Shown here: piece after piece, positions 11,422 to 18,375 of the stretch
How the letters are laid out: each line of letters begins with the position of its first letter
How positions within the stretch are numbered: the stretch's first letter is position 1
Virus record (IMG/VR): IMGVR_UViG_3300042383_000031
Location: 1 to 39,545 of that record
Source of the DNA: a virus
Length of the DNA stretch: 39,545 bases
Strand: one strand, 5' to 3'
Translations under genes and position numbers: made by a program
The notes under the pieces: generated by a model
The model's database searches: none
What the model saw: only the letters and a program-made list of their open reading frames with translations
Told to the model about the DNA's origin: nothing

Positions 11422-11437
11422 TCGAACATATGTTCTA
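11422..11437. promoter_or_regulatory. Candidate LexA (SOS) box
   Basis: TCGAACATATGTTCTA contains the perfect 12-base palindrome GAACATATGTTC. It matches the Gram-positive/actinobacterial LexA box (TCGAAC-N4-GTTCGA) at all but one of the twelve defined bases. It abuts the CRP-like dyad of early promoter P1. Binding by host LexA is inferred. Confidence 0.6.
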
Positions 11438-11490
11438 TGACCTATATCACACCATATCGACTTGACTTCTTAGGGGTCGTGTGGTATAAT
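11436..11490 (+). promoter_or_regulatory. Early promoter P1 with CRP-like dyad
   Basis: -35 TTGACT (11462-11467), 17-base spacer, -10 TATAAT (11485-11490) with an upstream TGG extended -10 element. A TATGA-N6-TCACA dyad (11436-11451, one mismatch to TGTGA-N6-TCACA) ends exactly 10 bases before the -35. It reads into the rightward early operon. Confidence 0.85.
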
Positions 11491-11505
11491 GCGCCCTAGT
11501 TTAGA

Positions 11506-11560
11506 TGTGATGTATCTCACACCGACACGACTTGACTTCCCCTAGTGAGCGTGGTAGAAT
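11506..11560 (+). promoter_or_regulatory. Early promoter P2 with perfect CRP-like dyad
   Basis: -35 TTGACT (11532-11537), 17-base spacer, -10 TAGAAT (11555-11560) with TGG extended element. A perfect TGTGA-N6-TCACA dyad (11506-11521) ends 10 bases before the -35. The ~35 bases from the -10 onward (ACGCAGTA, then ACAATTAAATAAGGTTA) recur almost exactly after P3. Confidence 0.88.
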
Positions 11561-11616
11561 ACGCAGTATCACAATTAAATAAGGTTAGTTAGTCCGAACA
11601 AGTAGGCTAGTAATGG

Positions 11617-11681
11617 TGTGATACACTTCACATAAGTTCTAGCGTGTCGGACTTGACTTACTAGATTAGGTGTGATAGAAT
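11617..11681 (+). promoter_or_regulatory. Early promoter P3 with perfect CRP-like dyad
   Basis: -35 TTGACT (11653-11658), 17-base spacer, -10 TAGAAT (11676-11681) with TGA extended element. A perfect TGTGA-N6-TCACA dyad (11617-11632) ends 20 bases before the -35, one helical turn further than at P1 and P2. It lies 121 bp from P2 and shares its downstream sequence, so P2/P3 look like a tandem duplication. It is the promoter nearest to the 11822 gene. Confidence 0.88.
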
Positions 11682-11821
11682 ACGCAGTAATACAATTAAA
11701 TAAGGTTAAGTAGTCAAGTAGTGGTTAGGCTTGATTAGATTACTAGTAGCAGTAGGTCGCCTATGGTATCACGACCCTAATCACTACTTGATTACTTAAC
11801 CCCTAGTGAAAGGATAGGATA

Positions 11822-12151
11822 GTGCCATATAACCCCTTCGGGGTTAGTGGTAGCATTATCACACCGCCTAGACAAGTTAGGGCTAGCGTAGCGTGGAAGG
11901 GTTCACGCTCACGCAAGTTTAGCGAAGTCGTGGTGCGTGATAAGTCGGGCAACATAATCGCAGTAGTCGAAGATAGCCCTGCGGTTAAGTTAGCGAAGCG
12001 TAGTCGCAAGTCTGCGCAAGTCGCTACCCCTGCTACCCCTGCCCCATTAACCGAAGCAGAATTGCGGTCTATTGCGTTAGAAGAACGCAGACTACAATTC
12101 GAAGCAGAACAAGCGCAGAATTATCGTAGATTAGTCGGTGAGTATAACTAG
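11822..12151 (+). CDS. Unknown early protein, 109 aa
   Basis: First gene of the rightward early operon, about 130 bases after promoter P3. The GTG start follows GAAAGGATAGGATA. Residues 1-50 look like a small beta-rich fold (SGSIITPPRQVRASVAWKG, FSEVVVRDKSGNIIAVVED). A basic Ala/Pro linker follows (about 55-78), then a C-terminal charged helix (LTEAELRSIALEERRLQFEAEQ). No known motif. As the first product after infection it could be a small regulatory or host-takeover protein, but nothing in the sequence proves this. Confidence 0.75.
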   Translation: MPYNPFGVSGSIITPPRQVRASVAWKGSRSRKFSEVVVRDKSGNIIAVVEDSPAVKLAKRSRKSAQVATPATPAPLTEAELRSIALEERRLQFEAEQAQNYRRLVGEYN

Positions 12152-12160
12152 ACACCGATA

Positions 12161-12211
12161 GTCGTAGCCGATAGGTTCGGGTTCTCTAGGGTTCGATACC
12201 CTACTACGACA
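12161..12211 (+). other. tRNA-like fold lacking a normal body (not a standard tRNA)
   Basis: A 7-bp stem (GTCGTAG at 12161 with CTACGAC ending 12210) encloses a perfect TpsiC-type arm (TAGGG, loop TTCGATA, CCCTA; 12187-12203), followed by one unpaired A. Only 19 bases separate the 5' strand from the T arm, too few for D and anticodon arms plus variable loop, so it is not a functional canonical tRNA. It could be a remnant, a tRNA mimic or a regulatory RNA in the leader of the next gene. Confidence 0.55.
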
Positions 12212-12230
12212 CGCCATAAGTCGGGGATAC

Positions 12231-12259
12231 TTGACTTGTAGCCGTAGGTATGATATACT
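12231..12259 (+). promoter_or_regulatory. Early promoter P4
   Basis: -35 TTGACT (12231-12236), 17-base spacer, -10 TATACT (12254-12259) with TGA extended element. It starts about 20 bases after the tRNA-like fold and drives the 12284 gene. Unlike P1-P3 and P5 it has no CRP-like dyad at the 10- or 20-base position. Confidence 0.8.
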
Positions 12260-12283
12260 TACGCCATAACGAAAGGATAAGAT

Positions 12284-12385
12284 ATGTTGCTAGAGATACT
12301 AGTAGCGGTTCAGACCTTGACTATCATAGCCCTAGTTGCTAGGGTGAATAGATTACAAGGTCGCCTAGAGTATAGGGGTCGATAA
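12284..12385 (+). CDS. Small membrane protein, 33 aa
   Basis: ATG with GAAAGGATAAGAT upstream, directly after promoter P4. The peptide has one hydrophobic helix (residues 2-20, LLEILVAVQTLTIIALVA) followed by a basic tail (RVNRLQGRLEYRGR), a single-pass layout with the basic tail probably cytoplasmic. The stop is immediately followed by the GTG of the next gene, which supports real translation. Function unknown; small early membrane peptides of phages often act on host membrane or entry functions, but that is only analogy. Confidence 0.6.
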   Translation: MLLEILVAVQTLTIIALVARVNRLQGRLEYRGR

Positions 12386-12595
12386 GTGGACGACCTATAC
12401 GAACTAGTTAATGAAGAATTGGCTAGACAAGCGCAGGATATTCTCGCACTTGACCCTAATTCTTTCATAGATTACGATACTGCTATGGCGGATATGATAG
12501 AACGCTTAACTGCGGTATGGTATAGCGGTTATGAGTTCGGTATGGAAGATAGACTAAACGAAGGTTTAGAAGTAGATGAAGAAGCCGAACTATGA
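12386..12595 (+). CDS. Unknown acidic early protein, 69 aa
   Basis: The GTG follows the previous stop without a gap. The product is strongly acidic and helical (MDDLYELVNEELARQAQDIL, ending GLEVDEEAEL) and overlaps the next gene as ATGA. No cysteines, motif or membrane segment. Acidic early phage proteins often bind host enzymes or mimic DNA, but I cannot say that here. Confidence 0.7.
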   Translation: MDDLYELVNEELARQAQDILALDPNSFIDYDTAMADMIERLTAVWYSGYEFGMEDRLNEGLEVDEEAEL

Positions 12596-12765
12596 TAACC
12601 TTAGAATTGTCTGATAGAGAACTTATAGTAATCAGACAAGCACTACGCACCGAAGAAGAACGCCACAAGCGCAACGACTTTAGGGTGCTAGAATTAGAAG
12701 CACAAGAATTGAGAAGTAAGATAGCCGATAGTGTGATTAACACCACAGTAAAGGTGCTTGACTAG
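12592..12765 (+). CDS. Unknown charged helical protein, 57 aa
   Basis: The ATG overlaps the preceding TGA. The sequence (MITLELSDRELIVIRQALRT...) is a charged, probably coiled-coil helix of about 45 residues. Its 3' end contains promoter P5 and its CRP-like site, so coding and control sequence overlap. No family recognised. Confidence 0.65.
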   Translation: MITLELSDRELIVIRQALRTEEERHKRNDFRVLELEAQELRSKIADSVINTTVKVLD

Positions 12766-12786
12766 GTTATAGCAAGGTGCTATAAT
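12732..12786 (+). promoter_or_regulatory. Early promoter P5 with CRP-like dyad
   Basis: -35 TTGACT (12758-12763), 17-base spacer, -10 TATAAT (12781-12786) with TGC extended element. TGTGA-N6-CCACA (12732-12747; one mismatch) ends exactly 10 bases before the -35, the same geometry as P1 and P2. It drives the amidoligase/amidotransferase pair. Confidence 0.85.
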
Positions 12787-12809: not shown

Positions 12810-14021
12810 ATGCCGATAGATGATGAAGTGGAAGAATATACTTGCGCTTCTTGCGATTATACTACTACTAACGAAGATGACTTATGCTTCGTAGATGATA
12901 GCCTACTATGTGAAGATTGTAGGTCGTGGTGCGATAATTGCGAAGAATATATGAGCAACGACAGTTCCCACTATGTCGAAGGTGTCGGTGATTATTGCGA
13001 GAGTTGCTGGGAGAATAACACTTGCTACTGCGAAAGATGTAGCAATACTTATCCCGATAGTATTAGCCAATATCATATCGAAGATAGGGGTGAGTATTGG
13101 TGCGAAGGTTGCTATGAACACGAAGGTTCATACTGCGAAGATTGCGACCAATACTTTAGTAGAGAGTGTGAAGGGTGCGGTGAAGGTGGTGGTGGTAGGT
13201 CTAACCTAATCCACCAATACTCATACAAGCCTAGCCCAAAGTTCTTCGGTAATGATAAGCATAACCTATACTTCGGGCTAGAGTTAGAGATGGAGATTAG
13301 GTCGGGTAATCTGCGAGAGAGTGCGCAGTATATCCAAAGCAAGGTAGGCGATAGTATCTACCTTAAAGATGATAGTAGTATTGCTAGGGGTGGATATACT
13401 GGCTTCGAGTTAGTATCTCACCCATTATCCTTCGGTCATTGGATTAGTCAGATGTCTAACCTATGGGAAGGCTTAGAGTATCTGCGTGATAATGAGCAAG
13501 CAAGGTCGTGGGACGCAGAGAGTTGCGGTATCCATATCCACACAAGTAGGGCAGGGTTTAAGAGTGGTGCGCATACGCATAGGTGGCTAACGCTTATCTA
13601 TAAGAACGCACCAGAGATGATGAAGTTCGCTGGTCGCAAGTCTGACTATGCGAAGTTTAATGATGTATGGCAGTATGACGAATACGATAGACCATACTTC
13701 TCCGTCAAGCACAAGTTAGACGGACGAAGCCACACCGAAAGATATTCTGCGGTTAATACGCAGAACGAACACACGCTAGAACTGCGGTTCTTTAGGGGAA
13801 CTACTAAACCTAGCGGTGTTCTAAGTGCTATTGAGTTAGCACACGCAAGCATAGAATACACTAGAGATATGACCCTATCAGATGTTAAGTTAGGTATGCT
13901 AAAGTGGGATTGGTTCTATGACTATGTAGAAACTAACAATGGTTTCTACCCTAATTTATATGAGCGTATGTCCAAAGTATCTCATATAAACCTAAAGAAT
14001 ATAGAGATGATAAATGCGTAA
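12810..14021 (+). CDS. Amidoligase-family enzyme with N-terminal Cys-rich zinc fingers
   Basis: 403 aa; the ribosome site AAGGGGGTGATGAT precedes the ATG. Residues 1-125 hold 18 cysteines, mostly as CxxC pairs (12/15, 34/37, 41/44, 63/66, 74/77, 98/101, 109/112, 120/123), so several zinc ribbons for protein or nucleic-acid binding. Residues ~150-350 carry the pattern of the COOH-NH2 amidoligase family with a glutamine-synthetase-like fold: YFGLELEMEI (154-163), GIHIHTS (240-246) and HTLELRFFRGT (321-331), giving Glu and His metal/ATP ligands. Such enzymes form amide or isopeptide bonds using ATP. The next gene encodes a glutamine amidotransferase, a pairing that implies ammonia or amine transfer to a protein or peptide. 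The substrate is unknown. Confidence 0.8.
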   Translation: MPIDDEVEEYTCASCDYTTTNEDDLCFVDDSLLCEDCRSWCDNCEEYMSNDSSHYVEGVGDYCESCWENNTCYCERCSNTYPDSISQYHIEDRGEYWCEGCYEHEGSYCEDCDQYFSRECEGCGEGGGGRSNLIHQYSYKPSPKFFGNDKHNLYFGLELEMEIRSGNLRESAQYIQSKVGDSIYLKDDSSIARGGYTGFELVSHPLSFGHWISQMSNLWEGLEYLRDNEQARSWDAESCGIHIHTSRAGFKSGAHTHRWLTLIYKNAPEMMKFAGRKSDYAKFNDVWQYDEYDRPYFSVKHKLDGRSHTERYSAVNTQNEHTLELRFFRGTTKPSGVLSAIELAHASIEYTRDMTLSDVKLGMLKWDWFYDYVETNNGFYPNLYERMSKVSHINLKNIEMINA

Positions 14022-14032
14022 AGGGGGTAGGT

Positions 14033-14926
14033 ATGTGTCTATTGGTAGTATGTAATCCTAACTCGACACCGAGTAAAGATGACTTACACAATGGTGCGTG
14101 TAGTAATCCGCACGGCTTCGGCTTTGCGATACAGACACCCGAAGGTATTATATCTGAACGCAGTATGTCTGCGAAGAAGTCGGTCAAGCGGTTCTTAGAA
14201 CTGCGTGAGCAGTATCCCGAAGGCTACGCTATGTGGCACGCACGATACGCTACTCACGGAGTAAAGAACGAACAGAATTGCCACCCCTTTAGGGTGGGCG
14301 ATAGCGACTTGACTTATCTCGCTCACAATGGCGTGTTAGATATTCATATACCTAAGGGTGATAAGCGTAGCGACACTAGAATTATGGCAGAAGAATTACT
14401 GCCACGATTAGGTGGTGTATCTGCGTTAGATGACGAATATGTATATGATATGGTGTCGTCTTGGGCTAGTGGTAGTAAGGTAGCAGTTATGACCTTAGAC
14501 CCTAGTGCCAAATACACTATGTATATTATTAACGAAAGTCTAGGCACTTGGGACGATAGCGGTGTATGGTGGTCGAACCAATCACATAAGCGCACAGTAT
14601 CTACGCCACGCACTACTTCATACACTAACTACTATGGGTATGATGACTATCTCGACAAGCAGATAAGCACAAGTATGGAAGATGATACCGATATACTAAC
14701 CAAGTGTATGTGGTGTGATGAAGATATAGATATGGAAGATAATCCATACTACTGCGATATGTGTATGAACTGCTTTGATTGCGGTATGACTATGACGGAT
14801 TGTATGTGCTACAATGAAGCCGACAAGTTCTCCATAGTCCAAGAACAAGAGTATATAAATCGCTACTTATCAGATGATAATTGGTATTCAAAGAAGTGGT
14901 ATAGTAAAGAGCCACTCGACTTCTAG
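14033..14926 (+). CDS. Class II glutamine amidotransferase with C-terminal zinc ribbon
   Basis: 297 aa; AAAGGGGGTAGGT lies upstream of the ATG, 11 bases after the amidoligase. Met removal would expose Cys2, the Ntn nucleophile of class II amidotransferases (MCLLVV). The family signatures follow: HGFGFAI (27-33), HARYATHG (69-76), NCHPF (82-86), LAHNGVL (96-102) and SDTR (113-116). These enzymes release ammonia from glutamine. The usual synthetase or isomerase partner domain is absent; instead the C-terminus has a Cys-rich ribbon (225/228, 241/244, 247/250, 257/259) like that of the neighbouring amidoligase. A joint amidation system is a strong inference. Confidence 0.85.
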   Translation: MCLLVVCNPNSTPSKDDLHNGACSNPHGFGFAIQTPEGIISERSMSAKKSVKRFLELREQYPEGYAMWHARYATHGVKNEQNCHPFRVGDSDLTYLAHNGVLDIHIPKGDKRSDTRIMAEELLPRLGGVSALDDEYVYDMVSSWASGSKVAVMTLDPSAKYTMYIINESLGTWDDSGVWWSNQSHKRTVSTPRTTSYTNYYGYDDYLDKQISTSMEDDTDILTKCMWCDEDIDMEDNPYYCDMCMNCFDCGMTMTDCMCYNEADKFSIVQEQEYINRYLSDDNWYSKKWYSKEPLDF

Positions 14927-15547: not shown

Positions 15548-15979
15548 ATGAAGAAGGGTCAAGCATCATTTTGGAATTACTATACTGTCAATCGTGGCAG
15601 TAAAGAGAATAAAGATATACTAAGTAAGAATGGATTGTGTCGCAATAGCGATGACCCTGACCTGTGGTTCTCTGATGAAGTAGAACAGGATAGGTCGGGC
15701 AGACCTTCTCTTAAAGAGAGTGAGATGTTAATCACTAGAACTATACAAGCACTAAAGATATGTGATATGTGTAGTGTTAAGGACTTATGTTTAGAAGAAG
15801 GTATGCGTAAGGATAACTTGGAGCACGGAGTATGGGGCGGTGTTATGGCAGGTGAAAGAATGCTTGCTGCCGAATTGCCAATACTCGGCTTCGATAGAAG
15901 CAAGAAGATTACCTTTGCCAATAAGGTGAGGAATAGAATAAAGTTCGACAGAGAGGAAAGATATGAGAAACAAGTATAG
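15548..15979 (+). CDS. whiB: WhiB-family iron-sulfur transcription regulator
   Basis: 143 aa. The four cluster-binding cysteines follow the WhiB layout: Cys31, then Cys72-x2-Cys75-x5-Cys81. DPDLWF (36-41) follows the first Cys, and the diagnostic turn GVWGG is at 94-98, followed by a basic C-terminal region (SKKITFANKVRNRIKF) for DNA contact. WhiB proteins bind a [4Fe-4S] cluster, usually contact the primary sigma factor and occur only in Actinobacteria and their phages, so this fixes the host phylum. In mycobacteriophage TM4 a WhiB homologue interferes with host WhiB2. Here it lies in the early operon, so control of host or phage transcription is likely. It overlaps the next gene by 17 bases. 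Confidence 0.93.
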   Translation: MKKGQASFWNYYTVNRGSKENKDILSKNGLCRNSDDPDLWFSDEVEQDRSGRPSLKESEMLITRTIQALKICDMCSVKDLCLEEGMRKDNLEHGVWGGVMAGERMLAAELPILGFDRSKKITFANKVRNRIKFDREERYEKQV

Positions 15980-17530: not shown

Positions 17531-17660
17531 CAGACCTGAAGGTATTACAGATAAGGATGAAGAAGAAGAAATGCTAGCAAAGTTTTGGGCAGACTACGGC
17601 GAGAGCCTATGGGTTGACCCAATGGAACAGGAATGGATGTGGGATGAGAAGACTAACTGA
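17520..17660 (+). CDS. Acidic protein, 46 aa; last gene of the rightward operon
   Basis: I choose ATG 17520 because the preceding stretch of this frame lies inside the neighbouring gene. Acidic, Trp-rich sequence (LAKFWADYGESLWVDPMEQE). It converges with the sigma-factor gene and overlaps its 3' end by eight bases, so no terminator separates the two operons here. Confidence 0.6.
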   Translation: MNSNRPEGITDKDEEEEMLAKFWADYGESLWVDPMEQEWMWDEKTN

Positions 17661-18375
17661 CTTGCTTGTCTTCCTCGCCCCTATCATCATGCCACTCATG
17701 TTCGTTGGCGGCGTGGTTAGTTTCTTCTACTTCGTCTACTTCGGACTTCTCTTTATCGGGTGAGTCCTCTTCAAGATATGGTCTGAATCCACCTATCTTA
17801 TTTATTAATCTTTTAACTGCTCGCTTGTGTCTCATCCGAGCAGTATCCTCGCTAAACAATTCAAGGAAGTTCGCTATCTCCTTGAAGTCGAGAGACTCTG
17901 CGTGTCGCAAGAATAGTAATTTTCTATCCTCTTTACTTAACTTGTAATACGCAGAGTCAATCTCAAACATCATTACATTTAAGTTACCGCCTTCGGCTGG
18001 CGCTTGTGGACGATTAGTTCCACCTAGATTTAACTTGTGACTTACACCATACTCACCACGCAATACTCCTGGTAAGATAGCCTCAACAATTACTGGCTCA
18101 TAGTAATGTAAGTCAGCAACATCATAGCCAACTGACTTGGCTTTCCAACGCTGACAATAATCTAATGCTTGATTTCTAAGTGAACGATAGATTAAGTTCT
18201 TAGCATCCTTCTCACCTATCGCTTCCCATTCATCAAGTTTATTTGGATGCTCAACGAACCATTGATACAGTGATTGTTTAATGTCTTCCATCTCTACCAT
18301 AGTAAACTTCTTATGGTATTCAGAGGCGACAGCGACCACTACATAGTCCCACTTCTCAATGCGTTGCCAATCCAT
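17653..18375 (-). CDS. ECF-like RNA polymerase sigma factor
   Basis: 240 aa, last gene of the leftward early operon. Residues ~10-80 fit sigma region 2 (DIKQSLYQWFVEHP, NLIYRSLRNQALDYCQRW). Residues ~137-195 fit region 4 with a helix-turn-helix (LSKEDRKLLFLRHAESLDFK, EIANFLELFSEDTARMRHKR). A linker of ~55 residues joins them, and an acidic His/Glu-rich tail (200-240) follows. Region 2 is divergent, so promoter specificity is probably unusual. As the only sigma factor here, it is the natural candidate to direct RNA polymerase to late promoters in front of terL, though this is inference. Confidence 0.75.
   Translation of the reverse strand: MDWQRIEKWDYVVVAVASEYHKKFTMVEMEDIKQSLYQWFVEHPNKLDEWEAIGEKDAKNLIYRSLRNQALDYCQRWKAKSVGYDVADLHYYEPVIVEAILPGVLRGEYGVSHKLNLGGTNRPQAPAEGGNLNVMMFEIDSAYYKLSKEDRKLLFLRHAESLDFKEIANFLELFSEDTARMRHKRAVKRLINKIGGFRPYLEEDSPDKEKSEVDEVEETNHAANEHEWHDDRGEEDKQVS

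Follow-up and report, generated by a model that had tools for sequence, protein, structure and literature searches.

Gene Content and Likely Host

The window, that is, the whole stretch of DNA analyzed, is the 39.5-kb IMG/VR virus record IMGVR_UViG_3300042383_000031 (positions 1-39,545). Its early region holds many small ORFs without a family and five promoters, P1 to P5, all on the plus strand. The first larger gene past P5 is Amidoligase_2-like (12810-14021, plus strand; PF12224, E 8e-8), followed by a glutamine amidotransferase-like gene (14033-14926, plus strand; PF13522, E 4e-6); together (12810-14926), they possibly form a pair that modifies a peptide or a surface. Further downstream are a WhiB-like gene, an actinophage marker (15548-15979, plus strand; PF02467, E 5e-10), and a sigma factor-like phage gene on the minus strand (17653-18375), with 67% identity to its counterpart in the Planktophila phages E7 and F5. 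No integrase was found among the phage proteins scanned.

As for the host, PMC10202952 describes two phages isolated on Planktophila, E7 and F5, whose genomes OX376640 and OX376641 were deposited as LanE43-AprE7 and LanE43-AprF5; protein identity to these records is ∼75% for TerL, ∼78% for the major capsid protein, ∼83% for the DnaB-like protein, and ∼67% for the sigma factor. Because of this kinship, Ca. Nanopelagicales (Planktophila) is the group to which the host most likely belongs, and 46 Actinomycetes genomes of 1.0-1.9 Mb served as candidate-host proxies.

Early Promoters and Their Dyads

All five promoters have a TTGACT box, a 17-nt spacer, and a TG ahead of the -10 (TGnTAnnnT), as the initial annotation had described; the -35 boxes start at 11462 (P1), 11532 (P2), 11653 (P3), 12231 (P4), and 12758 (P5). 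Four of them are preceded by a dyad that fits the CRP consensus TGTGA-N6-TCACA (PMC4117774). P1 (11462-11490, -10 TATAAT) has TATGACCTATATCACA at 11436-11451, with one mismatch (9/10), whereas the dyads of P2 (11532-11560, TAGAAT) and P3 (11653-11681, TAGAAT) are perfect (10/10) and correspond to TGTGATGTATCTCACA at 11506-11521 and TGTGATACACTTCACA at 11617-11632, respectively. The 9/10 dyad of P5 (12758-12786, TATAAT), TGTGATTAACACCACA, occupies 12732-12747, within the 3′ end of the ORF at 12592-12765. The gap, counted from the dyad end to the -35, is 10 bp for P1, P2, and P5 and 20 bp for P3, so that both the quality of the sites and the spacing agree with what had been annotated. P4 (12231-12259, TATACT) is without a dyad, as are the promoters of its type in relatives.

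Regarding site frequency, the P2 and P3 dyads are the only exact ones in the whole record, with ∼0.05 expected at 42% GC (a hand estimate); five sites with at most one mismatch occur in the window, four of them at the gaps above. With up to two mismatches, no excess is seen (13 sites versus 22.5 expected), and therefore the signal resides in near-perfect, positioned sites. The P2 leader nearly duplicates that of P3, and the latter (11704-11801) can form a hairpin whose outer stem measures 26 bp (-50 kcal/mol, z -5.6); its sequence is kept in close relatives.

A second motif recurs between dyad and -35, as CGACACG/CGTGTCG. It is represented by CCGACACGAC at 11522-11531, between the P2 dyad and its -35, and by GCGTGTCG at 11642-11649, adjoining the P3 -35, both on the plus strand; the forms CGACACGCC and GGCGTGTCG occur at the same place in L083, L085, L093, and others, and the motif is found in relatives and in other actinophages, too. 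CGACACGCC is also present at 12207-12215, upstream of the dyad-less P4, and a palindromic form, ACACGCCGTGT, occurs in gap-21 promoters of other phages.

Finally, positions 12161-12210 hold a tRNA-like RNA element that lacks the anticodon arm and consists of a 7-bp acceptor-like stem, a short D-arm-like hairpin, and a T-arm with a TTCGATA loop. Among relatives, its stems covary, with GTCGTAG/CTACGAC replaced by GTCCTAG/CTAGGAC and TAGGG/CCCTA by TGGGG/CCCCA. In phage E7, a counterpart of other sequence (GCCCCCC/GGGGGGC) lies 940 bases upstream of terL. ARAGORN called no tRNA at this element, and Rfam gave a sub-threshold match to the tRNA-like mascRNA; over the early region, Rfam returned sub-threshold matches only, mostly to eukaryotic microRNA models.

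Conservation among terL Relatives

Eighty terL relatives were fetched, and 55 loci, including the window, E7, and F5, had usable upstream sequence. Dyads scoring at least 9/10 number 69 in 113.5 kb of early region, whereas the 262 kb examined on the terL side contain 1. Measured against 112 TTGAC promoters, over 60 gaps tested, these dyads occur only at gaps 10 (22 cases), 20 (6), 21 (2), and 22 (2), in line with the 10/20-base spacing proposed from the window alone. When the gap was left free and each of 34 non-redundant dyads was paired with the top-scoring promoter downstream of it, 22 were in phase versus 20% in random stretches (p ∼ 1e-8), a score that favors TTGAC-like boxes and is not independent of the promoter model.

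E7 and F5 carry perfect dyads upstream of terL, and in E7 a promoter follows at gap 31. The F5 dyads have no single best promoter, one of them (offset 643) having an in-phase candidate tied for the top score; given this ambiguity, E7 alone was counted as support. For some dyads of other relatives, no promoter stands out clearly at the gap expected (e.g., L025, L067, and L078). Near-perfect dyads are absent from the terL sister clade, which carries other palindromes upstream of its TTGAC promoters, such as GTATTAAATTAATAC and GTCTGAAAATCAGAC in L025, L026, L030, L032, L038, and L039, as if the operator had been exchanged.

Helical Phase in Viruses and Bacteria

IMG/VR was scanned twice with any gap from 4 to 34 allowed, which provided samples of further viral sites. 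Among the matches listed, the gaps peak at 10, 21, and 31-32, with a period of ∼10.5-11; the 41 non-redundant sites with an extended -10 pattern have a mean phase of 9.9 modulo 10.5 (Rayleigh p ∼ 1e-11). Gaps of 10, 21, and 31 place the dyad centers at ∼-53.5, -64.5, and -74.5. The placement of the dyads on one helix face, read initially from four promoters, is thus borne out by the phase shared by relatives and IMG/VR sites. Chance as the origin of the arrangement was rejected on the gap counts in relatives, the non-redundant IMG/VR phase, and the enrichment of early over terL-side sequence.

WhiB is carried by 22 of the 50 viral contigs tested among the matches listed; all 25 sites on these 22 contigs are in phase, versus 26 of 34 on the 28 others (Fisher p 0.016). 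The whiB-positive contigs with phased sites span 12-116 kb, some being fragments, and in most of them no terL homologue was detected. A TerL search of 32 contigs returned a close relative for 3, a distant one for 4, and none for 25, and because of these 25, the dyad-promoter arrangement is seen not to be confined to one phage family, with the reservation that some contigs are fragments.

Bacterial genomes of many phyla yielded 116 stretches with the same pattern, at a mean phase of ∼7.5-7.6 modulo 10.5 (gaps near 7, 18, and 28) and with peaks at 6-8, 16-18, and 27-29; this is ∼2.5-3 bp off the viral phase and corresponds to E. coli class I positions, the lac gap of 17 included. A general bacterial CRP phase was therefore rejected as the explanation for viral peaks at 10, 21, and 31. 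Among 395 Actinomycetes genomes scanned, the pattern occurred in 33: of the 30 places listed out of 33, 29 share gap 20 and belong to a single recurring type of promoter sequence, and 1 is at gap 22, while the remaining three have gaps of 9, 11, and 21. The phase in Actinomycetes agrees with the viral one. In the recurring chromosomal promoter (L320-L348), the Crp dyad is perfect and the gap is 20 (TTTGACG...CCGTAATGTTCTC). One phage-type gap-21 promoter is on CANHQP010000079.1, a MAG contig labelled Flavobacteriia, which is probably a mis-binned actinophage.

Candidate-Host Regulator and cAMP

An HTH_Crp_2 protein scored above the cut-off in 45 of the 46 small Actinomycetes genomes, and the recognition helix GASRETVNKALADF was present in all 30 GlxR/Crp proteins read. 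The combination of a core CRP dyad (TGTGN8CACA) with a TTGAC promoter was found in 0/46 of these genomes; therefore, no host-gene counterpart of equal strength was seen. As for position, M. tuberculosis CRP sites cluster from -60 to -40 relative to the start site (PMC4117774), and the center of the gap-10 dyad, ∼-53.5, falls within this range. The phage itself encodes no Crp-like gene, as had been noted initially, and no cNMP-binding domain was found in it.

The initial annotation had offered two readings, that the phage recruits the host regulator or that it reads the host cAMP state. Recruitment of a host Crp/GlxR protein is well supported by consensus, position, phase, recurrence, the presence of Crp in candidate hosts, and the lack of a phage cNMP gene, whereas the cAMP part found no support: a class III adenylate cyclase was detected in 0/26 small Actinomycetes genomes by a search that finds one in C. 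glutamicum, that covered class III alone, and whose hosts are inferred, and cAMP enhances DNA binding by M. tuberculosis CRP only mildly (PMC4005916).

A Candidate LexA Box at P1

The initial annotation did not include a second candidate host input, a LexA/SOS box, CGAACATATGTTCT, at 11423-11436, which shares one base with the P1 dyad and may gate this promoter. It is one mismatch away from CGAAC-N4-GTTCG, and the perfect form occurs in relatives L011, L012, L014, L056, and L073. The boxes of the relatives (CGAACATCTGTTCG, CGAACAGATGTTCG, and similar) abut or overlap the first dyad, at an offset of -1, 0, or +2, and GAAC-N4-GTTC is found 40 times in 137 kb of early region versus 6 times in 262 kb. 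Within the window by itself, a single match of this kind lacks significance (present in 37/100 shuffles), and the box is missing beside the dyads of L016, E7, and F5.

In the candidate hosts, TCGAACNNNNGTTCGA boxes, nearly all of them TCGAACANNTGTTCGA, are present in 26/26 genomes; some of the TCGAACANNTGTTCGA boxes lie upstream of lexA-like and recA-like genes, assigned by eye. The dyads touched by LexA boxes are mostly 9/10 and the next dyad downstream mostly 10/10 (exceptions L072, L079, and L080); a Crp site weakened where a LexA box adjoins it would fit competition between the two proteins, an observation that is suggestive only, the rows being related.

Proposed Mechanism and Alternatives

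From the computed sites, spacing, conservation, and phase, together with the host regulator genes and host LexA boxes, we infer binding, activation, and competition in a host taken to be Ca. Nanopelagicales (Planktophila). The main reading, to which a probability of about 0.75 is assigned, is that host Crp/GlxR is recruited as an upstream activator and that P1 is also gated by host LexA. The dyads would be putative operators for a regulator of this family, whose dimer would sit upstream of the -35, centered at ∼-53.5 (gap 10) or ∼-63.5 (gap 20), and touch the host housekeeping RNA polymerase from a single fixed helix face. P2 and P3 would be strongly activated, and P1 and P5 activated via imperfect sites. 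The mode would be class I-like, with an actinobacterial phase instead of that of E. coli; given this difference in phase, the promoters are classed as working like class I, and not as E. coli-type class I. At P1, host LexA would compete with Crp via the overlapping or abutting box, so that P1 would be low in undamaged cells and rise once the SOS response removes LexA. A more specific version, put forward tentatively and at less than even odds, is a two-input gate on the host state: host Crp, free of cAMP, might act as a general activator against LexA at one overlapping operator of the first early promoter, with start-up held in healthy cells and released upon DNA damage, the Crp part being common to many actinophage lineages with an activation phase unlike that of E. 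coli.

Other readings bear on which protein occupies the dyads and on how they arose. Phage proteins commonly bind phage early operators, and the many small family-less ORFs of the early region speak for a regulator that the phage itself encodes, either one of another fold or a repressor; this is nevertheless improbable, as the phage lacks a Crp-like gene, a repressor would be expected over the promoter and not upstream of the -35, and the consensus and phase recur in lineages with no recognizable terL relative and match those of actinobacterial chromosomal promoters, which points to a shared host protein. Hardly credible is an origin by chance, or from one duplicated ancestral promoter inherited in one family without selection on spacing: the near-copy leaders of P2 and P3, and gaps of 10 and 20 reachable by one insertion, would suit duplication, but the phase is kept in a non-redundant set across unrelated phages, and gaps 11-18 are nearly empty despite indels.

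The other two alternatives concern what Crp and LexA would do at these sites. It appears unlikely that occupancy by cAMP-Crp sets the strength of early expression: the candidate-host Crp does keep the M. tuberculosis-type cAMP-pocket residues (E...TS...R...TN; compared by eye with Table 1 of PMC4005916), and CRP/cAMP controls phage T1 promoters in E. coli (PMC6737242), against which stand the cyclase result and the mild cAMP effect on the M. tuberculosis protein. Similarly, it is doubtful that the palindrome at 11423-11436 is an ancestral or chance feature and not a functional LexA site; the shuffle result and the absence of the box beside the L016, E7, and F5 dyads would agree with this, whereas a functional site is favored by its strong enrichment in relatives, where it abuts the first dyad at a nearly constant offset, and by its identity with the candidate-host lexA/recA boxes. 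Recruitment of host Crp, with LexA acting at P1, thus remains the preferred reading.

Comparison with Known Systems

Like the phages of Alphaproteobacteria regulated by CtrA ("lytic deferment", PMC9437464), this phage has clusters of putative sites for a host master regulator in its promoter regions, and such clusters are found in several lineages: the sites are concentrated in one early regulatory region, at the densities reported above, and recur in unrelated phage lineages, some contigs being fragments. The CtrA phages differ in regulator (CtrA, of the cell cycle) and hosts, and their binding and regulation were shown experimentally, whereas those proposed here were computed from sequence; the abstract of that paper mentions no LexA partner, at variance with the LexA box of the present phage. 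In coliphage T1, host CRP acts on phage promoters, as proposed here, but its effect there is cAMP-dependent repression of pir, dam, and recE (PMC6737242); in our case, the placement of the dyads points to activation, and a dependence on cAMP is doubtful. A phage promoter with host LexA boxes is known from GIL01, a temperate phage of Bacillus thuringiensis, where LexA works together with gp7, a protein of the phage (PMC4551915); unlike in GIL01, the LexA box of the actinophage overlaps a Crp site, and no integrase is among its scanned proteins.

With regard to the architecture of the promoters, E. coli CRP class I promoters of the lac type likewise place the dyad ahead of the -35 at helically periodic distances; the lac gap is 17, with the center at -61.5, and the phage gaps of 10, 21, and 31 are ∼2.5-3 bp off this phase. 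Two actinobacterial Crp proteins, Rv3676 (M. tuberculosis CRP) and GlxR of C. glutamicum, have the same recognition consensus as the phage dyads, and act at chromosomal genes, unlike here; we know of no LexA overlap at their promoters. A literature search for CRP in actinophage promoters found no report, which does not prove its absence. Regulation of phages by a host protein is already known singly for CtrA, CRP, and LexA (PMC9437464; PMC6737242; PMC4551915), and the new element here is the putative LexA gating of P1.

In conclusion, given the recurrence of the spacing in many unrelated actinobacterial viruses, borrowing the host Crp regulator looks like a general strategy. A dyad 10, 21, or 31 bp before TTGAC provides a sequence rule that marks actinophage early promoters in metagenomes, and it predicts where an actinobacterial Crp must sit for activation, a position unlike the one given by the E. 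coli rule. Phages E7 and F5 and their cultured host make the proposed Crp/LexA wiring directly testable. If the reading is true, phages of the dominant freshwater actinobacteria would start transcription via a borrowed global regulator of the host, and their first early promoter would also sense the SOS system.
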